DNA of 64,000 nucleotides. Origin: Gambelia wislizenii. Lineage: Eukaryota; Chordata; Lepidosauria; Squamata; Crotaphytidae. The notes below the pieces were generated by a model that saw only the letters and a list, made by a program, of their open reading frames with translations, made no database searches and was not told the origin of the DNA. The stretch covers positions 287,970,028 to 288,034,027 of the forward strand of contig JAUMIR010000002.1 in the NCBI GenBank assembly GCA_030847615.1, given 5' to 3'. A program made the position numbers and the translations under genes. Shown piece by piece: positions 1-62,093 of this stretch. Numbering within the stretch: the first letter of the stretch is position 1; the number at the start of each line of letters is the position of its first letter.

Positions 1-3000
1 TTAAAATTTCTCTGTGGATAGCAGTGAGAGATATCCATACTCAGATCAATGGAGAAATCAAAGATTTAAATGTAGCTGGGATTGGGACTTTACATATAGT
101 ATGTCCTGTCCACCCCACCCACAAAAGGGGAGGAATCCAAAAGAGGTCAACCATGCTCACTGGGCAGAAATTGCTGATTACTGGGAGGTGGGTGGAGAAC
201 AGAATGGAGCAGCTGGAACTAGGAACAGAAGTACTCCACCCTGCAGCAATTTCGATGCATAACTCCACTTGGACAAACTATTACACTAAAGTTTGTATGC
301 TTTTCTGGAAAGATTAATATAAGCATTCAATTAAGGACTTTAAAGTGTATGTTACTTGAGAGAATAAACAGAAGTCATCCTTGCCAAAGCAGTGTACAAT
401 CTAAATTTTGGTGTAACTGGAGACAAAGATGAGAAAGGTAGAACTTTCTGTTGAAAACAGACCATTGAAGGGGATCAAGAGAGGGCAAACTGAATCCCTC
501 TGGCTGTTTTTATAGCACTGAAACTCTTCCCCACTATTTTTCTGGTAATAAATAAACAACCCTGGTGAACTGCTTCTCATGAAAGCTTCTTGAAGAAGCT
601 AGTCATCTTTTAAATAGTGCAAGGGCCCTTTCTTGTACCAAGCGACTTTCACTCCATGCTAAACATGAAATTGAAATCTTATAATGTAATCCTATGCTTA
701 TTTACTCCGAAGGAAATCTAACTATTCAGTGAGGCTTATTTTCCAGTGTCTTTAGGATTACTGTACAGCCTTGACCTCAAGACTTAGCAAAGTTACTACA
801 GACATATATAGAGGCTATGATAACTTGTTACTATGGATTGACATGTGATCTTATCTTACACATAATCAGCTGTAATGTAATTCAACCCCATGAAGCATGC
901 TACTAGGGAAGGAAGGATGACCCCTATAAAGGGTGTTCCTGTACAAAACATGCAGTTAGAAAGACTACAGGAATGAGTAACAAGATAGTATGAAGATTCC
1001 GAGTGCCCTGACTTCAGCTATTTATTTCTTGAAAATTTCTAATTAAATCTAATTAGCAGTTGCTATTAATAAAACAAAGCTCTGTGCATTTAAAATACTT
1101 TAATTCAGGGAGATGAGCAATGTGAAGTCAAAGGCTTTCACAGCCGGCATCCATAGATTTTCCTCACAGCCCGGAAAAAAACCCAAGGAAAATCAGGGAG
1201 ATGACTTTCCCCATGGTTCCCCAGCAAAGAGGACACTACCAATCTTATCAACCAATATAGCCAAGAACATTCAATTTTCAGCCTTACTTGTGAAAAAACA
1301 GAAAAAAATATCTAGAGGAAAAGAGTGTGCTGGGGACTTTATCTGCTCATGCCATACCTGGTCTCACCCATGGATGTAGAGTGAAGTTACCTATTTTTCA
1401 AGAGCTACTTTGTATTGCAGTAGGAAGTGTGCATCAGTATAGATAATTTCACCATTAATTCATAGGATCTAGCACCTAAGCTATAAAAATAAAGATGCCC
1501 AACCATATTTTAGTTTGCTACCCTTGCAGCTATCATAACGAAAGCAAATCTTACCTGCCATGTAATATGTCTGCAGAATTAGCTGTGCTTTTATCAGTAT
1601 TTTACTTACTATTTGTTTTAAGATATGAAAATCCAATTTATTTCATGTTCCTTCTCCTTGCCATGTAATTTTTAATATATCCAAAATAATCACACCTCTT
1701 TGCTTGACTTCAAGATAGTTCCACAGGCCCACCTGAGTTTTGACAGTAAGCTTTCAAAGAATGTTTAAAGGAGGTAGATCTAGTGTTAAAGAAAATAATT
1801 AGAACTGTATAAAATGCATGCCATAGAATCATAGAATCTCATTCTGAACAGTTATGTTAGTGAACAGATTGTACAACACGTTGTCATGATAGGTTAAAAA
1901 GTCCATCATTAATGTAATGTGTTTTTTTGCCACTGTAACAAGACAAATGACCCATCCTAACAGGAATGGAATGGCTTGTCCTCAGTAAATAGCTACTATA
2001 GCCATTTTCTACAAAGACGATATTCAAAATATCCCAAATATCCAAAATGATATTCAGCTACATATATCTATTTTATATAAGCAGACATCTGTAAGAAATT
2101 TTAGACACAATTCTATTTTTCAGAACTCTAAATTGTTAAAAGAACACAAAGACATAAAAGAACAGTACTAAAAATATTTGCCACCTGAGGAGACTATTTT
2201 TAATTTTTGAAATTCCAGAAACAGTATTTAGCTGTCTGATTAATGCCTTTAAAAAACAAATTTTTCATCTGTACAGTACTTTCATTTTACCAAAGGTGGC
2301 AGCACCAGTTAATTTTCTCTCATCTCTTTTCCTCCCTCCATATCAGATAGATACTAAAACTGCATTGATCTAACTGGCCAGATATTTTCTTCTAATCATC
2401 TTTCTTCAATTGACATGGAAATGGAATACTCTTAAAAACTGCTGGTGATGTTTTTGGAAAACGCAGCTGATACAGATCAGGTTAATTTGTGCAGACATTA
2501 AACAACATCCACGCAGAATTATTAATATACAGCTGGCAGAACAGCACTAAGGCACTCCCAGGTGTCACTCCCAGGAGTAAATGCACTGCTGAACCAGGAA
2601 GCATAGATCAGCACCAGGATTGTGCAATTCTGCTTCAAAGCACCAGTCATCCTAAAAAAGACTGGAAGTGCCAATTACAACTTGCTGAACTTATGGCACT
2701 CATATGAACATTAACATACATGCAAAACTCTCCTGCGACTGCTAACAGAGCAAACAATTAGCTAAAATAAGCTGATTTAATGGAAATCTTTCATATTAAA
2801 AAAACCCATTCACTTCTTAAGGTCTATAAAAGAGGTACATTTTTGGAGAAGCAGCTATAAAGGACAATTTCACATCACTCTCACAAAGTCAAGAGCAGCC
2901 AACCAAACAAAATACAGTATTAAATAGCAGTTCTCTATCAAGAAGACAAACACTTTCAAATTGGCTTAAAACCTTTTTGGAACAGATGTGTGGTAAAAAG

Positions 3001-3020
3001 TGGAGTAAGAAACACTAGTA
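1..3020. other. ANP32B intron 1, no further exon recognised
   Basis: This AT-rich stretch lies 3-prime of the ANP32B first exon on the minus strand, so it is intron. No stretch matches the leucine-rich-repeat exons expected next, so exon 2 is probably off the left edge. The only repeat trace is a short 'atagaatcatagaat' motif near 1822-1838, which resembles the octamer tail of an antisense CR1 LINE. Short open frames here lack splice logic or recognisable domains. Confidence 0.6.
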
Positions 3021-3235
3021 CAGTTGTCCCTTCGTATTCGCTGGGGTTTGGTTCCAGGACCCCCCATGGATACCAAAATCCGTGAGTACACAAGTCCCAT
3101 TCTATGCAATGGCATAGCAAAATGGTGCCTTCTATATAAGATGGAAAAATCAAGGTTTGCTCTTTAGATTATTATTTTTTAAATAATATTTTCAAGCCGT
3201 GAATACCTAAATCCATGGATATTGAGGGACAACTG
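3021..3235 (-). mobile_element. Tigger-like (TcMar) MITE
   Basis: The element starts with CAGTTGTCCC and ends with GGGACAACTG, so the ends are inverted repeats, and both ends are flanked by TA, the target duplication of Tc1/mariner-type transposons. The interior carries the 'ccaggacccccc...ggataccaaaatcc' and 'caagccgtgaatac' blocks shared with the copies at 6007, 37267 and 61863. It is non-autonomous, with no transposase frame. It lies in ANP32B intron 1. Confidence 0.88.
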
Positions 3236-3237
3236 TA

Positions 3238-4439
3238 CTGTACTTTTTTTGCCACATCTACCAAAAGGGGCCTCCAGTTTTCACTAGAGAAAAGGAGAAC
3301 TCCACTACTTGAAACGGCTTGTTCTTTTACCAACATATTTATCCAGTCCTTTGGACATCCCCACCTTCTAAAAATATCTTTAAGTTGTACAGGCATTAAG
3401 CACCTAAAGATTATAATAAGTGCACATAACATTTTGGTACAGTGACTGGGGCGCTTCCCCCCCCCTTCTGTTCTATTAACAGCAACCAGTCACTGCAGAA
3501 ATCAAACAGATTAAGCTTTTTGGCAGAGAGATGAAAATGACAAATGTTAGAAAGCTTCATTTTAATTCACATAGTGGTACACTTGTTATTAAAAAAACAC
3601 ACAGAGCAACGAATTTTTTGAACAAAGAAGAACATATGCTAGGAAAGCTCTGATTTCTATGTACAGTATTTCTGTTTCTGTGTTTGGTTGTGAAATCTGG
3701 AAAGTGAAGAAAGCTGTCACGAGTAAAACTAACATATTTAAAATGTAGTGCTGGACAATTCTGCAGATAACATGGCCTGCCCCCCCCCAAAGGGTGGTGG
3801 TGGTAATCTGAGAACAAATTAAACCTGAACTCTCCCTAAAAGCCAAAATGAGATTATCCAACTTTGGCCCTATCATGAGAAAACGTGACTGGTTAGAAAA
3901 GACAATGGCTAGTAAGTGAGAAGCAATGGGAAAAGAGGACGACCACGTTTAGGGGGGGGGGTCAAGGAAGCCACAGCTGAGTCTGCAGGATCTGAGGCAG
4001 GGCTATTGATGACACGGTGGCCTTCTCTCATCATAGGGTCGTCATAAATCGTAACTGACTTGATGGCAATTAACAAGGAGAGGTCCAATCTTCTTGTGGC
4101 TTTAATAAAATTTAACTCTCCTTTCATGTTTTTTTTATTACGCCGGTTCAAAATGACGCCGTTTGCTTTGAACGGGCTTTATTTAAGTCGAAAAGCAGAA
4201 CGTGTGTGTGTTGTTTTTGAAACTGTACTAATTTTAATTTGTTTGCCAGACTGAATCCCAGTTTTGGAGAAAAAGGTGAGGAATAAATAAAAAAAAAGTT
4301 AACCAGAGCAACAACGACGATGATGATGGTAAAAATACTGCTCAGGGAACTTGAGTGTCTCTCTTTTTAAATAAACGCTCTCCTAGAAATCAATAGGACT
4401 TTTAAAGGTCTAAATTACATTTCAGTTTTATTTGTGAGT
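3238..4439. other. ANP32B intron 1, no gene seen
   Basis: AT-rich intronic sequence with homopolymer runs (C-runs near 3459 and 3780, G-run near 3951). No supported coding, RNA or transposon feature. Confidence 0.5.
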
Positions 4440-4539
4440 GAAAGGAGACGCGCGCGGGGCGGGGGGAACAGAGGCAAGTTTTTGGCGGGAATACGAGCTT
4501 TGCGATATGGTGGGTGAAGAGGAGGGAGGGAGCGAGGAA

Positions 4540-4577
4540 GCTAGCTAGCTAGCTAGCTAGCTAGCAAGCAAGCAAGC
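4540..4577. repeat. (TAGC)n / (AAGC)n microsatellite
   Basis: Six to seven tandem TAGC units pass directly into AAGC units. The run of CTAG steps is self-complementary. It sits at the left edge of the CpG island. Confidence 0.9.
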
Positions 4578-4856
4578 GCGCTCCCGCCCACCTACTCGCC
4601 CGCGAGCATTCTCGCCCTCTCTGCAGCTGTCGCCCGTTTATAAAGGGGGAAGAGGGGGGTTGGGAATGACTGGCGAGAAAGCCTCAGCGCGCGCGCACTC
4701 GCACAAGCTCGCGCTGGCCGAAGAAAGCAAGCTCTTGTGTGGAGGGTGAAGCAAGCGCGCGCCTGCTCACCCGCCCGCGCCCCCCCCATTTGCGCAGCTG
4801 TTGCCCGTTTAAAAGGGGGGGAGAGAGAAGAAGGGCGCGCCCCAGCGCACGCACGC

Positions 4857-4990
4857 GCACCACTGGCTGCGAAGGAGAACGCGGCGGTTGGTGCGCGCGC
4901 GCGCCACTGGCTGCGAAGGAGACGCGGCGGTTGGTGCGCGCGCGCGCCACTAGCTGCGAAGGAGAACGCGGCGGTTGGTGTGTGTGTGCG
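4857..4990. repeat. Three-copy 44-bp minisatellite with alternating CG runs
   Basis: Three consecutive copies of a unit of about 44 bp read '(a/g)ccactggctgcgaagg', then 'acgcggcggttggtg', then an alternating CG or TG/CG tract. The second copy has lost one A and the third has a G-to-A change. The alternating purine-pyrimidine tracts are of the type that can adopt Z-DNA. It lies inside ANP32B intron 1 within the CpG island. Confidence 0.88.
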
Positions 4991-5093
4991 CGCGCGTGTG
5001 TAAAACGCCAACCGCCTCTCTCTCTCTTTCTCTCTCTCTCTCGCTGAAGGCAGCCCACGCTCTCTCACACAGTATGAGACGCAGCGGCGGAAC

Positions 5094-5105
5094 AACATGG
5101 CGGCC
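5094..5105 (+). promoter_or_regulatory. YY1-type motif in ANP32B intron 1
   Basis: AACATGGCGGCC matches the known YY1 consensus (AAnATGGCGGC). It lies about 240 bp inside intron 1. The ATG opens a 125-codon plus-strand frame, but that frame shows no recognisable protein, so a binding site is the better reading. Confidence 0.45.
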
Positions 5106-5337
5106 GTAGAGTCTCTCCTCAGCCGCTCGCCCGAGCAAGCTCTCCTCCCCACGCTTGGTTTTTTCCCCTCCCCTTTCCCCCTCCGTAGGCTGGCAGGGAC
5201 CACTCTTCCTCAGCCAACCCCCCTGAATGTAGAATTAAACCCCCCCACCTCCGCGCTCTCTCCTTCGGCTTTACTGTGGGGGCGAAAAAAGGGGTCAGGG
5301 GGTATCCCGGGCTTCCCGCTTTCCCGCCCATGCTTAC

Positions 5338-5391
5338 ATCCGGCGGGGTCCGGTTCCGCAGCTCCAAGTGGATCCGCTTCTTCATGTCCAT
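5338..5391 (-). CDS. ANP32B: ANP32B, first coding exon
   Basis: Acidic leucine-rich nuclear phosphoprotein 32 family member B is a nuclear histone-binding and chaperone-type protein with N-terminal leucine-rich repeats and an acidic tail. The minus strand encodes MDMKKRIHLELRNRTPPD, the family's N-terminal cap. The second residue D and the following MKK fit ANP32B better than ANP32A. The ATG has an ideal context (GCCGCCATGG). The exon ends at 5338 in GAT followed by a GTAAGC donor, leaving an intron in phase 0 after codon 18, the place expected from the family. The rest of the gene would continue leftwards out of the window. The divergent neighbour HEMGN reproduces human synteny and separates this gene from its paralogues. 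Confidence 0.93.
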
Positions 5392-5794
5392 GGCGGCAGT
5401 GGCGGCGGCGGCGGCGTAGGAACAAGTGGTACAGGCCCAGATTCAGGCCCTGTGTGCGGACGGCGCCGAGTTAACTCGGAGGGCAGAGCGGCGGGTGAGG
5501 GGGAGTTGCAGGCTGGAGGAGGAGGAGGAGGAAGGCGGGAGCGCAGGGCGCCTCCTTCGTCGCCGTCGCAACTGCAGTTAAACTGGCAACGAGAGGGCCT
5601 TGCCTGAGCTGAGGCGAGCCGACGGACTGAGCGACCGCCAGGGGGCGCGGCAAAAAGGCCGAGAAAGAGACTCCCCGGAACTTCTTGTCATAACCGCGCC
5701 CTCCTTCCTATCTGACGACGATGACGGCCCACAGCGTCTGCCCTCCCCTCCCCTGGCCAAAATGCGGCTCTAAGCAGGCGGCGCCGTCTTCGCG

Positions 5795-5803
5795 GCCGCC
5801 ATC
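5795..5803 (-). promoter_or_regulatory. YY1-type core near the ANP32B promoter
   Basis: GATGGCGGC on the minus strand, about 400 bp upstream of the ANP32B ATG and in the direction of its transcription. It is a partial consensus only, placed in the GC-rich promoter region. Confidence 0.3.
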
Positions 5804-6006
5804 GCTCCCTGTTGCTCGCGCATTCGTCCCCTCAGCGTTTTTATACAAGAGGCCTTTTTCCTCATGTCGAGAGCAAACCTCACCGGCAGGACATAAAATG
5901 TAAAGATTGGCGCTTTCATCCAGGCCTGCGAAAATTGTGAACCGTCAAGCCAAATGCGAGCTCGCTGACTCAAAAGCCGTGCTTCCGCCTCACAAAAACA
6001 TTCATA

Positions 6007-6218
6007 CAGTTGTCCTTCCATAGCCACGGATTTAGGTATTCACGGCTTGAAAATATTCTTTAAAAAATAATAATCCCCAAAGCAAACCTTGATTTTGCCA
6101 TCTTAGATAAGGGACACCATTTTGCTATGCCATTGCATAGAATGGGACGAGTATTCACGGATTTGGGTATCCTCGGGAGTCCTGGAACCAAACCTCAGAG
6201 AATATGAAGGGACAACTG
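6007..6218 (+). mobile_element. Tigger-like (TcMar) MITE
   Basis: CAGTTGTCC...GGGACAACTG ends are flanked by TA on both sides (6005-6006, 6219-6220). The interior has 'ggtattcacggcttgaaaat', then a TA-rich centre, then 'cattttgctatgcc', the same layout as the copies at 37267 and 61863. No coding capacity. It lies just upstream of the ANP32B CpG island. Confidence 0.9.
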
Positions 6219-6220
6219 TA

Positions 6221-7497
6221 CTACTTTTCTGGAAAGTTTCCTGGGAGGTTTCAGCGGCTGACTGCCGTCTTGAGCAGAATATGAACCCGCCCCCACCACA
6301 AAACTGGTGAAAAATGAGATCTAATCCAGCCTTTTTATTAGGCGTAGTGGCTAATCAGATGCTTTCATAAATCCCAGATGCAGAGATGAAGGCAATCTTG
6401 GTGTATTGCTTCATAAATTGATAAACACGTCATCGTGCGAATGAATGGCATGAATTATTTATTATATGAAGAGGTTGTCATCAGTTCTGCCACTCTGTTT
6501 CATTGGATGACCTGAGTCATCAAGACCCAAGGAGGCTTTTATGTAATCAGCCTGTCTCAGTCACAAGATTTTACAGGGGGAGTACTGGCAACATCTCCCA
6601 CTTAGGAGCCTCCATTGCTGCTTCCATTTTTTATTTTAGTTAATAAGAAAACATGAAGTATCAAGCATAAGGTATTTCAGTTGCTAACACAAGTAACCAT
6701 TTGTTTAAATGAACCTCTAGCAAGAGAGGGAGGAAAACATGGTGTATAATTTTATAGACTTCCAGTATGTTTGACAGTAGTTTTTTTTAAAAACTTGATT
6801 GTTCTCCTTTATGGATAGACTACTACCTGATCATAACTGCTCCCTAGCACCCTCTCCCATCTAGTAGAGCCAACAAGGCTACATGGCTGAGGGTGGTTCA
6901 ATGGACTGAGTGATTGTTAGAGCAGCACCCAAATGAATATGGACTAGAATTTATTTTAGGCTTTCCTCTGTTAAAATCCTGCTTTTGCAAGAGTTTTGTA
7001 TCTTTGAATTAGCTATTTATATTGCTATATGTTGCTGCTATTTTTGTTGCTGGCATTCTTGTTTTATTGCTCTAGTGGTTTATTTATATAAAGGCAGAGA
7101 TTTTTTTAAAAAGTTTTTTTTTTTAATTTCCAATGCTTTCCCCAGGACTTTCTACCATTAAAATTGCTTTTTTTGCAACTATGGCATGTGTTGTTTTTGA
7201 ACAGTTAACAACTAATTCAAACTTATCTAGAGTTTAGTAACAGACTCATGTTGTAGGCCTGATAGACCTGGAATATGTCTTCTCTTAGTGTGAGGTGCCT
7301 TTAGTCCTCCAGAAGTTATCAATTACAACTGCCATAATCCACTGCCATGGGCTGTAATGGCAGGGATATCTGGGAGTTAGCATTCTGGAGGGCCAAAGTT
7401 TCCCAAGCCTTGCTCTGGTTTCATGGAAGAGAAAAGGCAGGGAATTTGATCTGGGCAGTACATAAGGCAACAATGGACACTATGTTTGTATACAACA
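6221..7497. other. Intergenic sequence, nothing recognised
   Basis: AT-rich sequence between the ANP32B promoter and the next MITE. A short palindromic block near 7300-7400 ('gccataatccactgccatggg...gtaatggcagggatatctggg') resembles a worn hAT-type MITE but its ends cannot be set. Confidence 0.4.
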
Positions 7498-7499
7498 TA

Positions 7500-7793
7500 C
7501 AGGTTGCCTCCCCCCATTTACGTGGGATTGGTACCTGAGATTTCACCCACGATCAGGGAGGGAGAGAGCTCCCTAGGCATCTGGAAGAGAGGTGGTCTCT
7601 CTAGGCATCAGGAGGCCCTCCAGAAGTTGACCATAGAGTTGTGCCAGATGCCTAGAGAGGTGTCCTCTCTAAACATTTTCTAGGTCCTCTGGTGTGATTC
7701 TATGGTATAATATGGCAATTTGCTATTATACGCAGTTTCACATATCTGCAGTAAGTCCCGGAACGTATCCCCACATAAACAGGGGGCCACCTG
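7500..7793. mobile_element. TA-flanked Tigger-like MITE, divergent subfamily
   Basis: The ends are CAGGTTGCC and GGCCACCTG, flanked by TA at 7498-7499 and 7794-7795. The sub-terminal 'cccccatttacgtgggattggtacc' mirrors 'ggaacgtatccccacataaacaggggg' near the other end. Inside is a near-palindromic block ('cctaggcatctgg', 'ccagatgcctag'). No coding capacity. Confidence 0.75.
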
Positions 7794-7936
7794 TATTACA
7801 TATTCAGTAGATGTTTTCACTGAGTAGCCACCATGTCCTTGTGATTTTCCTCATCAGTGCATAGGAAGTTAGGATTTTTTTAAAAAAATATTTTTTGCCA
7901 CCATGAGCATCACTTTTAACTTGCGTGTCTCTTCCT

Positions 7937-8135
7937 CACTACACATTTATAACACTTTGATACCACTTTAACTTCCATGGCTGCATACTGTGAAATCCTG
8001 GGATCTGTAGTCTAGGGAGGCAGTAGAGCTCTTTGGCAGAAAATTCTAAATACTCCTCCCTAAACAGCAAACCCCAAAATTCCATAGGACCGATGGCCGT
8101 TAAAGTGATACCAGTGTGCTAGAACTGTGTAGTGA
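7937..8135. mobile_element. hAT-like foldback MITE
   Basis: The two halves are imperfect inverted copies: CACTACACA and 'taccactttaac' on the left mirror 'gttaaagtgatacc' and TGTGTAGTG on the right. The copies at 10243 and 53386 share the 'ctttaac..cCatgg/atagct' and 'ggaatcctggga' blocks, so this is a dispersed family. Non-coding. Confidence 0.65.
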
Positions 8136-8329
8136 ACATAAATTTTATTTACATATTCTTTATCAATGTATCAAATCTGAAAGACTCCTTTTGCAGTCTG
8201 CTCAGGCAATCATTTCCCTCAATTGCTTCTTGTCATCTCCAAACTTAGCCAGTTCCCAGTCCTGACTCAAAATATGAACAACTAGCAGCACAATAGCTTT
8301 CCCATACTTCTTGTGGTTGTTCAAATTGT

Positions 8330-8840
8330 TTATTACAGAGGTGGGTAGCTCATAGCACATGCATTGCAAGTAGACCCTGATGCTCTACTGGTGGTGATCC
8401 ATGGTATCTTCTTAAACATTACTTTCCAAGTGAATTGATTTTTTTTTCTTGTCTGCTTTCTTTACTGTCCAGCTTTCACATCCATATGTAGAAATCTGAA
8501 ATACTATGGCATGGATGATCCAGACTTTGGTATTCAATTATAATTCTTTGGATTCTAGTAGTTCATCTAGTTCCTTCATAGCTGCCATTCCAAGTATTAG
8601 TCTTCTGATTTCTTGATTGCAGTCTCCATTTTGATTAATGACTGAGTCCAGGTACAGAAAATCTTTAACATTTTGATGTTTTCCGCACCCACTTTAAAGA
8701 TATATAAATAATCTGTGGTCCTTATTGTTTTTTTTCTTAGTACAGTATTTAGCTGTAACCCTGTTTTTGCAGTTACTTTGCTAACTTTCTTCAGTAGTCA
8801 CTCCAAGTCTGCTATTTTCTGCTAGTACAAGTGTAACTCC
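8330..8840 (-). pseudogene. BovB/RTE LINE ORF2 C-terminal fragment
   Basis: Read on the minus strand, broken frames give YLGSVINQNGDCNQEIRR and, after a stop, VIHAIV..STYGCESWTVKKADKK-type residues. These are the conserved post-reverse-transcriptase region of RTE/BovB non-LTR retrotransposons. Stops and short indels break the frame. BovB LINEs mobilise the Sauria-type SINEs present elsewhere in the window. Confidence 0.75.
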
Positions 8841-8989
8841 TTAACCAAGCTAGAGACAAAGAAGCTCCTTTTTACAAAGTCTTTTTTATGGGAGTCCAGC
8901 CCAGCCCTTTCCTTTCTTGTCTTCTAACTAATTTTTGTTTGTTTGTTTGTTTTGGCAGCATTGGCATTGGAAGGCTCGTGAAGGAGGGC

Positions 8990-11979: not shown

Positions 11980-12189
11980 AGGGTCAAGAATCTCCAGTTG
12001 TGATCCCACCTAGTCAGTGGAGGCCGACCGTTCACATTCGGAGGAAAAGAGGAAACATAAGAAGAAGGACAAGTCTGTGGATCGTTCTTCCTCTCCTCTA
12101 CCTCCCATTCCAGCAGAGAATCTGTTACTGCTGTTACCAACCCTGACATCCCCTGCCCCATATCTATAATAATTTGGCAATATTTAATA

Positions 12190-14624
12190 CAGTTGTCCCT
12201 CCACATTCGCGAACTTGACATTCGCGGTTTCGGTTATTCGCGGTTTTGGGAGGGTCCCCCCCCGGGCCCCCCCAAAACCGTGACACGGGGCCTCCAGAGG
12301 CCCCGTGAAAGACATAGAGGGAGCGGGGAGGCACAGGGAGGCGTCCACGGGGCCCCCGGAGGCGCTCCGGAGGCCCCATGAAGGCCTGGGGAGGGGTGGG
12401 GAGGCGATCCTAGGGCCTCCGGAGACGCTCCGGAGGCCCCAGGAAGGCTTGGGGACGGGGTGGGGAGGGCTGGGGAGGCGATGCTGGGGCCTCCGGAGAC
12501 GCTCCGGAGGCCCCAGGAAGGCCTGGGGACGCGGTGGGGAGGGCTGGGGAGGCGATCCTGGGGCCTCCGGAGACGCTCCGGAGGCCCCAGGAAGGCCTGA
12601 GGACGCGGTGGGGAGGACTGGGGAGGCGATCCTGGGGCCTCCGGAGCGTCTCCGGAGGCCCCAGGAAGGCTTGGGGACGGGGTGGGGAGGGCTGGGGAGG
12701 CGATCCTGGGGCCTCCGGAGCATCTCCGGAGGCCCCAGGAAGGCCTGGGGACGCGGTGGGGAGGGCTGGGGAGGCGATCCTGGAGCCTCCGGAGACGCTC
12801 CGGAGGCCCCAGGAAGGCCTGGGGATGGGGTGGGGAGGGCTGGGGAGGCGATCCTGGGGCCTCCGGAGCATCTCCGGAGGCCCCAGGAAGGCCTGGGGAC
12901 GCGGTGGGGAGGGCTGTGGAGGCGATCCTGGGGCCTCCGGAGACGCTCCGGAGGCCCCAGGAAGGCTTGGGGACGGGGTGGGAGGGCTGGGGAGGCGATC
13001 CTGGAGCCTCCAGAGACGCTCCGGAGGCCCCAGGAAGGCCTGGGGATGGGGTGGGGAGGGCTGGGGAGGCGATCCTGGAGCCTCCGGAGCATCTCCGGAG
13101 GCCCCAGGAAGGCCTGGGGACGCGGTGGGGAGGGCTGGGGAGGCAATCCTGGGGCCTCCGGAGACGCTCCGGAGGCCCCAGGAAGGCTTGGGGACGGGGT
13201 GGGGAGGGCTGGGGAGGCGATCCTGGAGCCTCCGGAGACGCTCCGGAGGCCCCAGGAAGGCCTGGGGATGGGGTGGGGAGGGCTGGGGAGGCGATCCTGG
13301 GGCCTCCGGAGACGCTCCGGAGGCCCCAGGAAGGCCTGGGGACGGGGTGGGGAGGGCTGGGGAGGCGATCCTGGGGCCTCCGGAGCATCTCCGGAGGCCC
13401 CAGAAAGGCCTGGGGACGGGGTGGGGAGGGCTGGGGAGGCGATCCTGGGGCCTCCGGAGACGCTCCGGAGGCCCCAGGAAGGCCTGGGGACGGGGTGGGG
13501 AGGGCTGGGGAGGCGATCCTGGGGCCTCCGGAGCATCTCCGGAGGCCCCAGAAAGGCCTGGGGACGGGGTGGGGAGGGCTGGGGAGGCGATCCTGGGGCC
13601 TCCGGAGACGCTCCGGAGGCCCCAGGAAGGCCTGGGGACGAGGTGGGGAGGGCTGGGGAGGTGATCCTGGGGCCTCCGGAGCATCTCCGGAGGCCCCAGA
13701 AAGGCCTGGGGACGGGGTGGGGAGGGCTGGGGAGGCGATCCTGGGGCCTCCGGAGACGCTCCGGAGGCCCCAGGAAGGCCTGGGGACGCGGTGGGGAGGC
13801 TGGGGAGGCGATCCTGGGGCCTCCGGAGCATCTCCGGAGGCCCCAGAAAGGCCTGGGGACTGGGTGGGGAGGGCTGGGGAGGCGATCCTGGGGCCTCCGG
13901 AGACGCTCCGGAGGCCCCAGGAAGGCCTGGGGACGGGGTGGTGAGGGCTGGGGAGGCCCCAGAAAGGCCTGGGGACGGGGTGGGGAGGGCTGGGGAGGCG
14001 ATCCTGGGGCCTCCGGAGACGCTCCGGAGGCCCCAGGAAGGCCTGGGGACGCGGTGGGGAGGCTGGGGAGGCGATCCTGGGGCCTCCGGAGCATCTCCGG
14101 AGGCCCCAGAAAGGCCTGGGGACGGGGTGGGGAGGGCTGGGGAGGTGATCCTGGGGCCTCCGGAGACGCTCCGGAGGCCCCAGGAAGGCCTGGGGAGGGC
14201 TGGGGAGGCGATCCTGGGGCCTCCGGAGACGCTCCGGAGGCCCCAGGAAGGCCTGGGGACGGGGTGGGGAGGGCTGGGGAGGCGATCCTGGGGCCTCCGG
14301 AGGCCCCAGAAAGGCCTGGGGACGGGGTGGGGAGGGCTGGGGAGGCGATCCTGGGGCCTCCGGAGACGCTCCGGAGGCCCCAGGAAGGCCTGGGGACGGG
14401 GTGGGGAGGGCTGGGAAGGCGATCCTGGGGCCTCCGGAGATGCTCCGGAGGCCCCAGGAAGGCCTGGGGAGGGCTGGGGAGGCGATCCTGGGGCCTCCGG
14501 AGACGCTCCAGAGGCCCCAGGAAGGCCTGGGGAGGGAGGGGGGGAGGGGTGTCGTTATTCGCGGTTTTTTCACATTCGCGGGGGTCCGCGGAACGGAACC
14601 CCCGCGAATGTGAAGGGACGACTG
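12190..14624 (+). mobile_element. Tigger-like composite element filled with a 74-bp hairpin array
   Basis: The ends are CAGTTGTCCCTCCACATTCG and CGAATGTGAAGGGACGACTG, inverted to each other and flanked by TA on both sides (12188-12189, 14625-14626). About 100 bp of unique left flank contains a small GC-rich palindrome ('cggttttggg...cccaaaaccg'). About 85 bp of right flank holds 'attcgcggttttttcacattcgcgggggtccg'. Everything between is the tandem array described separately. A second element with nearly identical flanks lies at 19275-21952 in the opposite orientation, so the whole unit is a transposable family. No transposase is visible; transposition would need a related Tigger transposase in trans (inference). 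Confidence 0.88.
12286..14545 (+). repeat. 74-bp GC-rich satellite array, about 29 units
   Basis: The spacing between successive 'ggcgat' marks is 74 bp (for example 12551, 12625, 12699). Each full unit has a perfect 17-bp stem TCCTGGGGCCTCCGGAG / CTCCGGAGGCCCCAGGA with a 3-nt loop (ACG, CGT or CAT), followed by 'aggcctggggacg' and a G-run GGGGTGGGGAGGGCTGGGG that fits the G-quadruplex pattern. A few units are truncated (near 13945, 14190, 14300, 14480). Because 74 is not a multiple of 3, each frame reads the same 74-residue repeat in rotation. That makes long Pro/Gly/Arg-rich open frames on both strands; they are not evidence of genes. Confidence 0.95.
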
Positions 14625-14774
14625 TAATTAGGTCAAATGTGGCCTTCCTCACATTGCAGCCAGTAAAGTTGGGGAAATTCCAAAGCCAGGAATCCCAAAG
14701 ACTAGTGTTCAGACTCAATCCTATCCCAATACTTCCTACTTTATTCACTAGCCTTGTGTGAATGCTTGAATCCT

Positions 14775-17246: not shown

Positions 17247-19274
17247 TTCTTTTTAATTTTTTAAATTAATTTAAAAAATTAAACAACATACAATTTATAC
17301 ATACAACTTAACAAACACAGATAACAGTGATTCCCTCCACCCAGGGACTTCCCTTTACATTCATCCCTCTTTCCAAAATGCCATTGTTTCCAACTCAGGT
17401 TTGCTTCCTCTCCCCTTTATTACTATAAATTCTAAGAATTTACTCTATTTTTCACCAAAACATTCTTATTTAGCCCTCCTTTTTTCCCCCCTTTAACCAT
17501 ATTTGTTAATTTCTCATTTATAGCTATATTCCATACTTCAATATACCATTCTTCTATTTGGTATTCACCTTGTGTTTTCCATTTCTTTGCTACTATTAAC
17601 CTTGCTGCTGTCAGCAGGTTTGTTAATAAATCCTTAACAATTTGAGATTCTTGTATTTTTTCACAATATGATAATAATGCTATTTCAGGGCATAAAGGTA
17701 TATTTATCTGGAGTATCTCACTTATTTCATTCATTACTATTTTCCAAAATCTCTGCACATATTTGCAATTCCACCACATATGAATATACGTCCCCAGTTC
17801 TTGACATCCCCTCCAACACTGTGCTGAATACTTTTTATCTATTTGATTTAATCTTACTGGGGTTAAATACCATCTCCATATAATCTTATAGTAATTTTCT
17901 TTTATTCTTACTGATAATGTTTTCAAATGATGCATATTCCATATTTTTCCCCACTTTGATTTATCTATTACAATCGCTACATCTGTTTCCCATACATCTT
18001 TAAGATAATCTTGTACTTCTTCATTATCCATTACCATTTTATATATTTTACTTGTAATACCTTTTATATTAATTTTTTCTTGAGTAGTTTGTATAATCAG
18101 TTCCTCCAATTTTGTATTTTTTCTACAACTTCCTTCCTTTAACCATTTTTTTGTCCATCGTTCTAACTATTAGTTTAAATCATGTGAATCCTTGCTCTTT
18201 TAATATTTTTCCATATAATTATTATTTTTCATTATCCCCATCCATTCCTTCAACCTTATTATTTCTTGTCCTCCTAACTTTGCTTCCACTTCATTTCTTA
18301 AATTTGCTGGGAAACCCTCCAGCAATATTACTGGCGTTAATGGAGATATTCCTGGAACTAATACCTTTTTATATTTAATCCAAATATCTAGTATATTTTT
18401 TAAGGAGACAGACTGTACTATTTCCCTAAATTACTTTTTTGGTTTACAAAAGATATATTTCTTAATTTTAAATCTATCTCTTGTTTATTTATTTCCATCC
18501 ATTCCATTTCTTTTACTTTCGCAACACTATCAATAATATATCTCAATTGATTCGCTACATAATATAGCTTCAAATTGGGTAGGCCTAGACCTCCTTTTTG
18601 GGGGCATTTATACCATCTATTTTTATTAATTCTTGATCTTTTGCCTCCATTACAATAATTATTTATCATATTTTGCCACTTTTTAAATTCCGTCTCTGAT
18701 ATTTTAATAGGCAGCATTCTAAATAAAAAAAAATATTTTTGGTAAAATTTTCATTTTAACAAGTGCTATTTTTCCAAACCATGAGAGTTTAATTTCCCCA
18801 TATTTCTCTATTTTTTCTCTCCATATCTTTCCTTAATATAGTAAAAAAAAAAAATCCTCTAATTTTTCCAATTCTGCCACAATATTTATTCCTAAATATT
18901 TTATTTGCTCCTTTATTTTAATATATTTCTTTTTACTCTTCATATTTTTTGCTCTGCCTCTGTATAATTAAATATCATCATTTCTGATTTATTCCAATTT
19001 ACTTGTAAACCTGTCATTTTCCCAAACATTTCCAAATGTTTCTCTATCTCTTGCATTTTTTCCAATGGACCTTGTATTGTTATTAAAGTATCATCTGCGA
19101 ACATATTCAGCTTAATCTCTTCAATATTTCCTATCCCTTTAATACCTTCGTCCTTCCTAATTACATTAGCTAATATTTCTATTACCATAGCAAATATTAT
19201 TGGGGAGACTGGGCAACCTTGTCTTGTTCCCCTAGTTAAATGTATTTGTTCTGTCTTTCCATCATTTACTATTA

Positions 19275-21952
19275 CAGTCGTCCCTTCACATTCGCGGGGG
19301 TTACATTCCACGGACCCCCGCGAATGAAAAATCCGTGAATAATGACTGCCCTCCCCCTCCCCCACTATAGCGGCCATGGGGCCTCCGGAGGCCCCATAGT
19401 CGCCTTCCCCAGCCTCCCCACTCCCTAGGCCTTCCCGGGGCCTCCGGAGACCCTCCTGAGGCCCCGTGGAGGCCTCCCCGGCCCTCCCCACTCCCCACCA
19501 AGGCCTTCACGGGGCCCTGGCGGAGGCCTCCCCGGCCCTTCCCCCTCCCTCCCCAGGCCTTCGTGGGGCCTATCAAGGCCCCGCGGAGGCCTCTCCTAGC
19601 CCTCCCCCCTCCGTCCCCGGGCCTTCGTGGGGCCTCCGGAGCGTCTCCGGGGGCCCCGTGAAAGCCTCCCTGGCCCTTCCCACCTCCTCCCCGGGCCTTC
19701 ATGGGGCCTCCGGAGCGTCTCTGGGGGCCCCGTGAAGGCCTCCCCGGCCCTCCCCACCCCCTCCCCGGGCCTTCGTGGGGCCTCCGGAGCATCTCTGGAG
19801 GCCCCATGGAGGCCTCCCCGGCCCTCTCCACCCCCTCCCCCCCGGGCCTTCGTGGAGCCTCCGGAGCGTCTCCGGAGGCCCCATGATCGCCTCCCCAGCC
19901 CTTCCCACCCCCTCCCCGGGCCTTCATGGGGCCTCCGGAGCGTCTCCGGAGGCCCCATGGAGGCCTCCCCGGCCCTCTCCACCCGCTCCCTCCCAGGCCT
20001 TCGTGGGGCCTCCGGAGTGTCTCCGGAGGCCCCATGATCGCCTCCCCAGCCCTTCCCACCCCCTCCCCGGGCCTTCATGGGGCCTCCGGAGCGTCTCCGG
20101 GGGCCCTGTGAAGGCCTCCCCTGCCCTCCCCCCTCCTTCCCAAGGCCTTCGCGAGGCATCCGGAGGGTCTCCGAAGGCCCTGCGGAGGCCTCCCCAGCCC
20201 TCCCCCTCCCTTCCAAGGCCTTCGCGGGGCCTCCGGAGGGTCTCTGAAGGCCCCGTGGAGGTCTCCCCGGCCCTCCCCTCTCCCTCCCTGGGCCTTCGTG
20301 GGGCCTCCAGAGCATCTCCGGGGGCCCCGTGAAAGCCTCCCCGGCCCTCCCCACCTCCTCCCCGGGCCTTCGTGGGGCCTCCGGAGCGTCTCCGGGGCCC
20401 CCGTGAAGGCCTCCCCGGCCTTCCCCACCCCCTCCCCGGGCCTTCATGGGGCCTCCGGAGCGTCTCCGGAGGCCCCATGATCGCCTCCCCAGCCCTTCCC
20501 ACCCCTTCCCCGGGCCTTCATGGGGCCTCTGGAGCATCTCCGGAGGCCCCATGGAGGCCTCCCCGGCCCTCTCCACCCCCTCCCCGGTCCTTCGTGGGGC
20601 CTCCGGAGCATCTCCGGAGGCCCCATGTTCGCCTCCCCAGCCCTTCCCACCCCCTCCCCAGGCCTTCATGGGGCCTCCGGAGCGTCTCCGGGGGCCCCGT
20701 GAAGGCCTCCCCTGCCCTCCCCCCTCCTTCCCAAGGCCTTCACGAGGCCTCCGGAGGGTCTCCGAAGGCCCCGCGGAGGCCTCCCCAGCCCTCCCCCTCC
20801 CTTCCAAGGCCTTCACGGGGCCTCCGGAGGGTCTCTGAAGGCCCCGTGGAGGTCTCCCCGGCCCTCCCCGCTCCCTCCCCAGGCCTTCGTGGGGCCTCCG
20901 GAGCATCTCCGGAGGCCCCATGGAGGCCTCCCTGGCCCTCCCCACCCCCTCCCCGGGCCTTCGTGGGGCCTCCGGAGCATCTCCGGGGCCCCCGTAAAGG
21001 CCTCCCCGCCCCTCCCCACCCCCTCCCTGGGCCTTCATGGGGCCTCCGGAGCGTCTCCGGGGCCCCGTGAAGGCCTCCCCGGCCCTCCCCCTCCTTCCCA
21101 AGGCCTTCGCGAGGCCTCCGGAGGGTCTCCGAAGGTCCCGCGGAGGCATCTCCCAGCCCTCCCCCCTCCCTCCCCGGGCCTTCATGGGGCCTCCGGAGCA
21201 TCTCTGGGGCCCCCGTGAAGGCCTCCCCAGCCCTCCCCACCCCCTCCCCGGGCCTTCGTGGGGCCTCCGGAGCGTCTCCGGAGGCGCCACAGAGGCCTCC
21301 CCGGCCCACCCCACCCCCTCCCCGGGCCTTCGTGGGGCCTCTGGAGCGTCTCCGGGGCCCCTGTGAAGGCCTCCCTGGCCCTCCCCACCCCCTTCCCGGG
21401 CCTTCGTGGCGCCTCCGGAGCGTCTCTGGAGGCCCCATGATTGCCTCCTCAGCCCTTTCCAGCCCCTCCCCGGGCCTTCATGGGGCCTCCGGAGCATCTC
21501 CGGAGGCCCCATGGAGGCCTCCCCGGCCCTCCCCACCCCTCCCCGGGCCTTCGTGGGGCCTCCGGAGCGTCTCCGGAGGCCCCATGATTGCCTCCCCAGC
21601 CCTTCCCACCCCCTCCCTGGGCCTTCATGGGGCCTCCAGAGCATCTCCGGGGGCCCCGTGAAGGCCTCCCCGGCCCTCCCCCCTCCTTCCCAAGGCTTTC
21701 GCGAGGCCTCCGAAGGCCCCGCGGAGGCCTCCCCAGCCCTCCCCCCTCCCCTCCAAGGCCTTCGGGGGCCTCCGGAGGGTCTCCGAAGGCCCCGTGGAGG
21801 TCTCCCCGGCCCTCCCTGCTCCCTCCCAGGGCTTTCACGGGGCCTCTGGAGGCCCCGTGTCACGGTTTTGGGGGGGCCCGGGGGGGGCCCTCCCAAAACC
21901 GTGAATAATCAAAACCGCAAATGTCAGGTTCGTAAATGTGGAGGGGAGACTG
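19275..21952 (-). mobile_element. Second Tigger-like composite with 74-bp array, inside L1 ORF2
   Basis: Read on the minus strand it starts CAGTCTCCCCTCCACATT and ends GAATGTGAAGGGACGACTG. It is flanked by TA (19273-19274 and 21953-21954). The unique flanks match those of the element at 12190-14624, including the 'cggttttggg..cccaaaaccg' palindrome, 'attattca(c/g)cg' and 'cgcgggggtcc(g/a)' blocks. Removing it with one TA restores L1 codons across the join, which confirms the boundaries to the base. No transposase frame is present. Confidence 0.92.
19377..21862 (-). repeat. 74-bp GC-rich satellite array, about 33 units
   Basis: The same 74-bp period and 13-bp core stem GGGGCCTCCGGAG/CTCCGGAGGCCCC as the first array. 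The unit has diverged: 'gaggcgatcatgg' or 'gaggcctccatgg' replaces 'gaggcgatcctgg', and several units have GGGG replacing GGAG in one arm, which weakens the stem. Higher variation between units than in the first array suggests an older or less homogenised array. The long open frames on both strands (up to about 766 codons) are repeat artefacts. Confidence 0.95.
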
Positions 21953-23546
21953 TACTGTAGCTATATTTTTTTTATACTGTTGGTCAATCACACCCCTAAA
22001 TTTTTCTCCAAATCCAAATGTTTTCATTATATTTTTTAATGCCGGCCATTCCACACAATCAAAGGCTTTAAATATGTCCACGGCTAGAAGCCCTGCTTTA
22101 ATTTTCATTCTTCTGATTATATCTATTATATTTATTACTCTTCCAGTTAAATTAGCCATCTGTCTTCCTGCTATAATAAATCCACATTGATCTTTTTGTA
22201 TATATTTGTGCATACATTTATTCATCCTTTTCGCCAATATTGCTGTTAATATTTTTGCATCTTGATTTATTAATGATATTGGTCTATATGATTCCTGATC
22301 AGTCAGATCCTTATCTGGTTTTGGAATTAATATAATCAAAGATTGTTTCCACGATGGTGGGATCTCATCTCCGTTTAAAATGTTGTTATATAATTCCTTC
22401 ATTCTAGATATTAATATACTTTTAAATGATTTGTAATATTCAGCTCCCAAACCATCTTCTCCTGGGACCTTCCCCAGTTTCAATTTGTTTATAATATCCT
22501 CTATTTCCTCTTCTGTTATAGGTTGTTCCATTAATTCCTTCTCCTTGCTAATTATATCCTTACAGTTTTCCTGTATATATTTCCCTAAATCTTTCAGTGG
22601 ATCACCTGCTGAGTATAATTTTTGATAATATTCTTGAAATATCTTTAATTTATCTTTCATCAAATTACTTTTTTCCCCTTTTTCATTTTTAATAATTCCA
22701 ATCAAACTTTTAGATTTCTTTGCTTGTGTGGCCCTTGCTAGAATTCTAGAATGTTTATTACTATATTCAAAAAAAATCTCTTTTCATAAATAGCAGATTT
22801 CTTTTTACTATTTCTATATTTCCCTTTTCTAATTCTTTTCTCTTTGCTTGTATTAATGTGTTGATCTGTTTAATCTCTGTTTCTAAAATATTCTTTTTCT
22901 AAACCTTTAATTTCTTCTTCTAGTTCCCTTTACTTTTTTCCTGTTTTTTCCATAATATATGCGCTTCCCTAATAAATATTCCCCTTGCTACAGCTTTCAT
23001 TGAATTCCACAATAATGCTTGACTGCTTTGTCCTACTCTATTTATTTCCCATATTTCTTTTAATTCTACCTGTATTTTTCCTACTATATTTTTATAACCT
23101 AATATTTTTGTATCCTATCTCCATCTTTTTGCTTGTTTATAATCTTTTGTAGTCCTTATATCTGCTGTAGCTACTGCATGATCTGTAATTTTTATAACTC
23201 CTATATCTGTGTTTACAATTTGTGGGACCAGATTTTTGATATAAAAATGTAATCTATTCTCGAATAGGTTTTGTGTGTTGGTGAATAATAAGTATATCTC
23301 TTTTCTTCTCCTTTCCATTCTCTCCACACATCTCGTAATCCATTTCTATTTATAATTTTGTTCAAACCAGTTTCATACATTTTCTTGTCCTCCTTAGTAG
23401 GATTAGATTTATCTTTCTGCTTATCCATTACCATATTAAAATCTCCCGCCATTATTATAGATCCCTCACTTATTTCATTTGTTGCTTTAATAACTTCTTC
23501 ATAAAATTCTATTTGACCTTCATTTGGGGCATACAGATTAACCAGA

Positions 23547-37258: not shown

Positions 37259-37912
37259 TCTATATACAGTTGTCTCTCCATATCCACGGATTTGGTATCC
37301 ATGGATTTAAGTATTCATGGCTTGAAAATATTCTTTAAAAAATAATAATCCAAAAAACAAACCTTGATTTTGCCATCTTATATAAGGGACACCATTTTGC
37401 TATGCTATTGCATATAATAGGACTTGAATATTCATGGATTTTGGTATCCACGTGGGGTCCTGGAACCAAACCCCAGCAAATGTGAAGGGACAATTGTATA
37501 TAATTCTCTTGGGTATGTTGCCTTTCCCAGTGTGCTGGTTGGCTGCTCAGGAAACACACCCAACCTACACCCAGCCAATCACCACCCACATGCAAATTCC
37601 CTCTCCACCTCACAATGCACTCCTGTCACTCTGTGGCCCATATTGGGACCTGGGCAGTCAACTGGTAGCAAGGGCGGGACAATGCTGCTTCTGCTGCAAT
37701 GGGCCCCAGGCAGTCAACTGGTGGTGGCAGCGGCAGCAGGGGCAGGGCAACAGAGCGAGTCACCCTTAGCAATTCTGGGAAAAGTGTGGAATGCTGAGAA
37801 GGGGGAGGAGGAATTTAGAACCACTGGCCTACCTTACAAGGTTGTTGTGAGGTCTAATGGGCATTTTTTTGGGGCGTTTTTTAACTGAGTATGGTATGCT
37901 GAGTCCAGCTAG
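37259..37912 (+). mobile_element. Helitron-like element with a nested Tigger MITE
   Basis: It starts A|TCTATATA and ends GAGTCCAGCTAG|T, the A|TC...CTRR|T rule of Helitrons. A Tigger-like MITE (37267-37496) is inserted into the TATATA next to the 5-prime end. The remainder shares 'ctcttgggtatg', 'accacccacatgcaaattcc' and 'gggcagtcaactggt' blocks with 10488 and 56985. Non-coding. Confidence 0.7.
37267..37496 (+). mobile_element. Tigger-like (TcMar) MITE nested in a Helitron-like element
   Basis: CAGTTGTCTCTCC...GGGACAATTG, TA at 37265-37266 and 37497-37498. Interior as in the copies at 6007 and 61863 ('catggcttgaaaatattc', 'gggacaccattttgctatgc'). The nesting shows it is younger than the Helitron-like copy. 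Confidence 0.9.
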
Positions 37913-54771: not shown

Positions 54772-55590
54772 CTGTATATCTGTCGTCAAGTTGCCTGTTG
54801 ACGTATGGTGACCCCATGCAAGAAATACTCAAAGGCAGTTTGCTGTTTCCTTCCTCTGATATATAGGGCTCGTCTATATGAGCGGGAGGGATGGGACGGA
54901 TTGCTTTGGCATAGTAGCAATTCACAGCAGCTGCGAACTGTCTTAATGGTTTTATAACCACCATAAACTTTTCATGCCCCCTAGCCAAGATGGTGGCCAC
55001 GAGTGAATTACTTGCACTTTTAAACCTGCCGCTGCTAAAAATTAAGAAAAAATACTATGGTGTGCACAAGCAATATTTCACCTTTTCAAAAGAAAAAAGG
55101 AGAAAAGAGAGGAAAAGACCACCGTTTTTTCGCCTTACCGATCTCTCGCTTAGCTGAAAATCCAACATGGCAGCAGCGGGCACTTGCCCTGTTTGCAAGC
55201 CCCACCCCCATGCTCATCCAGCTAATCAGCTTGCGCTGCCTCTCCTATGGAAAAGCACAGTGATGCGAATGCAACTGTCTTAACGAGTGGACATGTGTAT
55301 TTTCTACGGAGCTTTTTAAAAACTCTGGGAAAAGCTGCGAAGGTTTCCCCGACAGTTTACAGTGGATTTGGCTGCCCTCCTTCTGAATACAATGCATCAG
55401 TGCAAATGTCCATTTAGATAGATCACCTTCCATGCAAATTCCATGAGGATTATTTTGACCGTTTAGACAATCCCATAGCCTATAGTACCAGATATTCATT
55501 GGCAGTCTCCCATCCAAGTACTAACCAGGTCTGACTCTGTTTAGCTTTCAAGATCAGATGAGATCTGGTGCTTTTAGGGTTTTTAGGCCA
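54772..55590 (-). mobile_element. 5S-rRNA-derived SINE split by a hAT-like element
   Basis: The tail ('ttgacgtatggtgaccccat', 'tttgctgtttccttcctctg') lies at 54772-54866 and the 5S part ('cccatccaagtactaaccag', 'tagctttcaagatcagatga') at 55488-55570. They adjoin directly in the intact copy at 48930-49141, so the element 54867-55482 was inserted between them. Confidence 0.85.
54867..55482. mobile_element. hAT-like element, GGGCTCGTCTA ends, nested in a 5S SINE
   Basis: GGGCTCGTCTA on the left mirrors TAGACAATCCC on the right. The interior shares 'caattcacagcagc', 'ccaagatggtggcca', 'aaaatccaacatggcagcag', 'gggcacttgccctg' and 'attccatgaggatta' with 33916 and 51455. Its ends coincide with the break in the host SINE. 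Confidence 0.8.
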
Positions 55591-61862: not shown

Positions 61863-62093
61863 CAGTTGTCCCTCCACATTCATGGATTTGACATTCACGG
61901 ATTTGAGTATTCACGGCTTGAAAAATATTCTTAAAAAAATAACAATCCTAATAGCAAACCTTGATTTTGCCATCTTATATAAGGGACACCATTTTGCTCT
62001 GCCATTGCATATAATGGGACTTGAGTATTCACGGATTTGGGTATTCACGGGGGGTCCTGGAACCAAACCCCAGCGAATGTGAAGGGACAACTG
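61863..62093 (+). mobile_element. Tigger-like (TcMar) MITE
   Basis: CAGTTGTCCCTCCACATTC and GAATGTGAAGGGACAACTG are a perfectly inverted 19-bp pair, flanked by TA at 61861-61862 and 62094-62095. It is the best preserved MITE in the window. Its termini are the closest to those of the two array-bearing composites. Confidence 0.95.

Follow-up and report, generated by a model that had tools for sequence, protein, structure and literature searches.

How tandem arrays are born and how they spread is an old open question, and it is touched by a locus in the genome of the squamate Gambelia wislizenii. In a stretch of 64,000 nucleotides from contig JAUMIR010000002.1 (the window), tandem hairpin units lie between inverted ends that are flanked by TA. 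Is this array a host repeat next to transposon ends, or does it belong to the transposon and travel with it? The answer that we favour, with a probability of roughly 0.88, is that the locus belongs to a non-autonomous, Tigger-like cut-and-paste family, that palindromic units, variable in number and arrayed in tandem as two modules, make up its interior, and that this array is inherited and then resized.

The boundaries of the array-bearing copy W1 were exact to the base: TA precedes CAGTTGTCCCTCC, which begins at 12190, and TA follows GGGACGACTG, which ends at 14624. The ends of the element family are of the CAGTNGTCCCTYCACATTCGCG type. The following features make up the locus.

12188..12189, no strand: left TA target duplication of W1
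12190..12211, plus strand: left terminal inverted repeat of W1, 22 bp, 20/22 matching the right one
12190..12255, plus strand: left end of W1, with 1 difference over 66 bp from the majority of 37 copies
12287..12304, plus strand: first short hairpin (GGGGCCTCCAGAGGCCCC), the left boundary unit S
12339..14540, plus strand: array of 29 long-hairpin A-type units (mostly 74 bp) with G-rich spacers, boundaries approximate
14569..14614, plus strand: right subterminal palindrome with arms TTCACATTCGCGGGGGT and ACCCCCGCGAATGTGAA
14603..14624, minus strand: right terminal inverted repeat of W1
14625..14626, no strand: right TA target duplication of W1

The first-pass annotation had reported TA duplications and inverted ends, and both were seen at coordinates that are right to the base. 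Its estimate of about 29 tandem units agrees with the 29 long hairpin cores that we counted, mostly 74 bp apart (exactly 74 in 20 of 28 spacings). A perfect 17-bp stem with a 3-nt loop had been claimed for each unit; it is present in 16 of the 29, with a 15-bp stem in six more. The four G-tracts ascribed to every unit form a motif within the spacer of 22 of the 29 W1 units, but not in the others. Stems that pair perfectly over 13 bp or more numbered 22, compared with a mean of 0.0 in 50 dinucleotide shuffles, and G-quadruplex (G4) motifs numbered 24, compared with a mean of 15.4 and a maximum of 22 in 200 shuffles. The W1 hairpins are therefore far above the expectation from composition and not due to chance, while the G4 excess is modest. 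At its right end, W1 differs from the 37-copy majority at two positions in the last 82-84 aligned columns, both of which are subfamily marks. Within the window, no junction-spanning match to an empty site of W1 was found.

A second copy had been claimed at 19275. It is real, inverted and flanked by TA, but diverged.

19275..21952, minus strand: W2, the second, inverted copy, 2678 bp, 30 long units, with TA at 19273-19274 and 21953-21954

W1 and W2 align at both tips. W2 is inserted in the reverse-transcriptase frame of a LINE, which we take to be of the L1 type, and when its flanks are joined with one TA, an uninterrupted frame of 199 codons runs across the junction. The LINE frame upstream of this junction matches Pfam RVT_1 (E 8.5e-14). 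Against the 37-copy majority, W2 shows 10 differences over the first 66 bp and 12 over the final 82-84 columns of the alignment, and only 1 of its 30 units has kept the perfect 17-bp stem. Judged by its sequence, W2 is an old, diverged copy.

The size of the family was assessed in the genome that holds the window (2.47 Gb in 68 contigs). The exact 32-base right end including the TA occurs 2182 times genome-wide, the reversed control 0 times; this count misses variants, such as a two-ended copy at C1:184 kb that differs in the tip. For the left end there were 1085 first-look candidates, of which the 40 scored were 97-100% identical and spread over 10 contigs; for the right end there were 560, and each of the 40 scored was 100% identical over 84 bp. 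The genome of this animal holds some two thousand copies or more. We inspected 42 copies: W1, W2 and 40 fetched places, comprising 20 of the 39 other left-end matches (L009-L028), 10 of the remaining 19 (L029-L038), and 10 places selected by their right end (each tenth entry among the first 100 listed for contig C1). Since the fetched copies were picked by high similarity to the left end of W1 or by an exact right end, young copies are favoured in this sample.

Among the 42 inspected copies, 41 are complete, and all 41 of these are flanked by TA on both sides. Together with the restored frame at the W2 site, this shows TA-duplicating insertion; what inserted was either the whole unit or an ancestor shorter than it. 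The first-pass annotation was therefore right that the element is a family and not a one-off, and its expandable structured array between TA-flanked inverted ends is borne out by lengths that vary between complete two-ended copies. End to end, these measure 405-3708 bp (7535 bp in L012, which carries a nested insert). The shortest has 3-4 units and the longest without a nested insert has 45 long units; inspected copies with these ends hold tandem units and are not array-less. Over 37 copies, long-core units range from 0 to 45, and the copy without any long core (L045) has six C units (see below). The right-end sample was complete in 10/10 cases (521-2864 bp, mean 1399); multiplied by 2182, this mean gives about 3 Mb or about 0.12% of the genome, a rough figure based on ten copies, one contig and exact right ends only. 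The insert in L012 is about 6 kb long, lies at about 2500-8900 and has long open frames including a reverse transcriptase (Pfam RVT_1); it is presumably an LTR retrotransposon of the Ty3/gypsy type. In a different place, L029 (1370-2260), the element stops within a hairpin unit, where it is joined to an AT-rich TCTAGATAGATA-type repeat, and its right end is lost.

The interior follows a fixed order: the short hairpin S, then A or B units, then C units, then the right end. This order was derived from 41 typed interiors (37 complete and 4 partial when typed), and typing by pattern misses decayed units. A units are 74 bp long with mostly ACG or CAT as loop, B units 63 bp (GCC), and C units 64 bp (CCTAGGAAGG). 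One unit class is missing from some copies; W1 and W2 are without a C unit by the typing pattern. Copies were also grouped by right-end haplotype, using sites picked after the 37-copy end comparison had been viewed and leaving untyped the four copies completed later. Haplotype A was accompanied by A arrays in 8/8 copies and haplotype B by B arrays in 12/12. With haplotype C, 9/11 copies had C units without B expansion and 2/11 had B units, so that the linkage between haplotype and array is not absolute; 6 of the 37 typed copies, W2 included, match none of the three haplotypes. As the right-end haplotype tracks the array type, the array travels with the element.

The array also changes after it has been inherited. 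The eight A copies have eight different lengths (990-3708 bp), while their ends carry few private changes, 0-1 across the first 66 bp and 0-2 across the last 82. Near-identical ends combined with a roughly fivefold range in the number of A units indicate that arrays change fast. Unit types a and b were found in 7 and 8 of the 8 A copies, respectively. The derived type b unit combines a linked AGAAAGG change with a loop that is both flipped and altered, and the eight copies that have it lie at different sites; multi-unit blocks are repeated within L010, L020 and W1. Arrays are inherited, then quickly resized.

The scheme that fits these observations best is as follows. A transposase acting in trans would recognise the ends of about 22 bp and place the complete element into a TA site. 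Transposition would pass the array on, so that it marks the subfamilies A, B and C, and units would be gained or lost within a copy, one or several at a time, presumably by exchange or slippage. Unit number would change much faster than the ends mutate, and palindromes that form hairpins in the cell during replication or repair might sometimes have their loop flipped.

The three unit types have different inner sequences, and a strong inverted repeat is kept in all of them. When single-stranded DNA folding was compared with shuffles, an A unit from the window gave z = -5.9, and the consensus sequences of B and C, both typed by us, gave -3.7 and -3.3 (2/200 shuffles were as good as C). Loops were found in both orientations. 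Among 191 A-unit loops, there were 115 ACG and 5 CGT, 11 ATG and 53 CAT, and 5 GCG and 1 CGC. W2 has ACC five times and GGT once. The C-type hairpins have AGCA 87 times and TGCT 6 times, and ATCA and TGAT once each; the commonest C loop, AGGA (131), is without a flipped form. The reverse complement is present for 12 of 17 distinct loop triplets, making six pairs against 2.15 expected (P 0.0013), a value from a crude null with evenly drawn triplets, in which some pairs are single units and the flips span 3-4 nt. In 5/5 CGT cores the arms of the core are unchanged, and since the step from ACG to CGT alters all three bases and leaves the arms intact, a flip is simpler than substitutions. Loops in both orientations are likely to be the footprint of hairpin-mediated inversion. 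In each of two copies (L047 and L057), several C-type hairpins carry the flipped TGCT loop, so that loop orientation may also differ between subfamilies.

More tentatively, at somewhat less than even odds, the loop flips may be germline footprints of hairpin or cruciform folding, and this folding may also be what makes units come and go. In that case the family, with thousands of scattered copies that hardly differ in their ends, would provide a natural experiment, replicated many times, on how hairpins destabilise repeats in a vertebrate, and the transposon would carry new unstable sites to other places. Selection on the stems, sought through covariation, was not supported: the stems of W2 are largely decayed, those of A barely vary, and double-sided change is scarce in the pair table (at one position of the A units, A-T replaces C-G).

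The hairpins had been described as alternating with G-quadruplex motifs. This holds for A and C units, since the four-tract G motif is present in 177/184 A intervals of 73-74 bp and in 156/158 C intervals (37 copies), but not for B units: it is absent from all 96 B intervals of 63 bp, as well as from all 11 shortened 63-bp intervals in A copies. The B intervals therefore rule out the G-quadruplex as a conserved feature of the family; the inverted repeat is the family trait.

Does the array also exist without the element? Exact matches to the A hairpin number 23,057 genome-wide (the pattern is self-complementary, so that both strands report the same sites). Fifty listed sites form eight clusters within the first 11.4 Mb of C1, and although these were located by unit sequence alone, an element end is on or near all eight. 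Of the six clusters that were fetched, five are two-ended and one has the right end only, its array reaching past the limit of the fetched DNA; the other two, judged by their listed positions, precede an exact right end by 0.2 and 0.9 kb. An end-less array was seen in none of the eight, and the proposed seeding of free satellite DNA by the element is so far unsupported in this part of C1; nor is the array always free of these ends. The sampled copies are dispersed and, without a nested insert, at most 3.7 kb long; in length and dispersal they differ from classical satellites, whose long arrays are concentrated in heterochromatin.

We therefore weighed whether something other than transposition of the array could account for these data. 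A host minisatellite that lies beside transposon ends, or was invaded by them, would be independent of ends that are merely incidental to it; tandem arrays are common, this one is GC-rich, and its A hairpin is very abundant. However, both ends with TA on both sides accompany the array in 41/42 inspected copies, each of the 8 clusters located by unit sequence has one end or both, on it or close by, the array type follows the end haplotype, and the LINE frame is interrupted by the entire 2678 bp of W2, which makes this origin highly improbable. Only slightly better are the chances that each array expanded independently after a short element had inserted, so that the structured satellite was not really transposed. 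Short copies do exist (405 bp with 3-4 units) and all eight A copies differ in length, but the derived type b units common to 8/8 A copies at different sites, and the match between array type and end haplotype, indicate that independent expansion alone is insufficient and that inheritance and resizing both act.

Another possibility, unlikely but deserving more weight than these two, is that the palindromes or G-runs have been selected as mobility aids, for example as extra transposase sites or for escape from silencing. Three unit types with differing inner sequences all retain a strong inverted repeat, and CCCCGCGAA is common to B units, C units and the right end. On the other hand, of eight comparisons only that of C with the right end gave a low P (0.008, uncorrected for the eight), with 0.084 for B and nothing for A and W2; A units are without the shared word, yet young and numerous; no B interval has the four-tract G motif; and most perfect stems have been lost in the old W2. 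An origin of the array unit as a copy of the end palindrome was rejected, as the similarity to the right end has a low P for C alone (again 0.008, uncorrected). We thus retain the reading of a transposon family whose array is inherited and resized.

The putative affinity to Tigger suggested by the first-pass annotation rests on the length of the inverted ends (22 bp, where about 20 bp is typical of Tigger/pogo-group MITEs), on the TA duplication in 41/41 complete copies, and on CAGT...TTCGCGG ends, which are Tigger-like. Consistent with a non-autonomous, MITE-like element, arrays without a transposase fill all 41 complete interiors by unit typing. A search for DDE_1 gave 248 candidates, of which 150 were scored, with 151 matches; eight of those listed have an unbroken 456-aa frame. 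In the three of the 151 matches that were read, the ends differ from those of the array element, and no autonomous partner was found among them; one of these three loci has Pfam DDE_1. On C1 below 96 Mb, 0/7 DDE_1 places lie within 290 kb of a right end (49 of the 100 listed right ends compared). The 456-aa family was rejected as partner, since three members (about 455-461 aa) have a different terminal sequence by eye. It is a multi-copy DDE_1 transposase family in its own right (L053, L058, L059), with ends unlike those of the array element, and it may be recently active.

The window also contains four array-less elements (212-231 bp), in which both ends are related to those of the array element at lower identity.

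3021..3235, minus strand: array-less 215-bp element with related ends
6007..6218, plus strand: array-less 212-bp element with related ends
37267..37496, plus strand: array-less 230-bp element with related ends
61863..62093, plus strand: array-less 231-bp element with related ends

The array-bearing form thus has small array-less relatives with a different interior. From 62354 onward, another Tigger-like left tip is followed by a G-rich, non-tandem interior, possibly a further relative.

Transposon-borne satellites are as such a known kind, as exemplified by Xstir and miDNA4 in Xenopus and Tetris in Drosophila. The original studies of Xstir and miDNA4 are reportedly those of Hikosaka and Kawahara (2004) and Scalvenzi and Pollet (2014). 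As the reviews present them, Xenopus MITEs with internal satellites include Xmix/Xstir and the Tc1-mariner MITE miDNA4, whose arrays are thought to feed satellites (PMC9659126, PMC12628747). Like Xstir and miDNA4, the family described here is a vertebrate non-autonomous element with a tandem array of variable number between inverted ends. It is set apart from them, by the reviews' descriptions and not by sequences, through two successive array modules that keep a set order, through units that are palindromic and G-rich, through inverted loops, and in that no free array was seen among eight clusters. Tetris of Drosophila virilis likewise carries variable internal tandem repeats on a non-autonomous DNA transposon, and is described as sharing end portions with the MITE DAIBAM (PMC4079207), as the array element does with the 212-231-bp elements. 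Unlike the Tetris foldback, with repeats of about 220 bp within its inverted repeats according to the same account, our element has ends of about 22 bp and an internal one-directional array, and only 1-2 G motifs are on the other strand (22 copies).

For Tigger elements (pogo group, Tc1/mariner), a survey gives a TA duplication, inverted ends of 8-33 bp and a presence in reptiles (PMC9219625); compared to these, the array element is without a coding region and has arrays in place of the interior. BrickBuilt of Porphyromonas gingivalis, as described, also encloses a tandem minisatellite between a leader and a tail that have inverted ends, but it is bacterial, with a 23-nt unit and 19 copies in one strain (PMC4596501). 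Satellites derived from SINEs in squamates resemble our case as mobile-element-borne tandem repeats of reptile genomes, but are reported to be of retroposon origin and likely subtelomeric, not part of a DNA transposon (PMC10702118). Within the titles and abstracts of the open-licence literature searched, with Repbase and Dfam outside the comparison, we found no Tigger element with such an array, in line with the earlier remark that no described family was known; neither the family nor its abundance, the order of its two modules or the flipping of its loops was found described there.

About two thousand or more array copies lie in one genome, each marked by TA as a single-step insertion, and they fall into three subfamilies whose ends are near-identical. 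With such insertions, array gain, loss and inversion become measurable copy by copy. The GC-rich palindromic G-runs may cause difficulties when this genome is assembled and its variants are called.

Neither the right end nor the hairpin nor the array-less MITE had a match in scans of viral contigs (0 each), a result that is uninformative for vertebrate DNA. Elsewhere in the window, positions 17435-18166 gave no match to a Pfam family. On the minus strand, a 5S-rRNA-like stretch at 55477-55588 scored above the Rfam gathering score and is perhaps part of a 5S-derived SINE.
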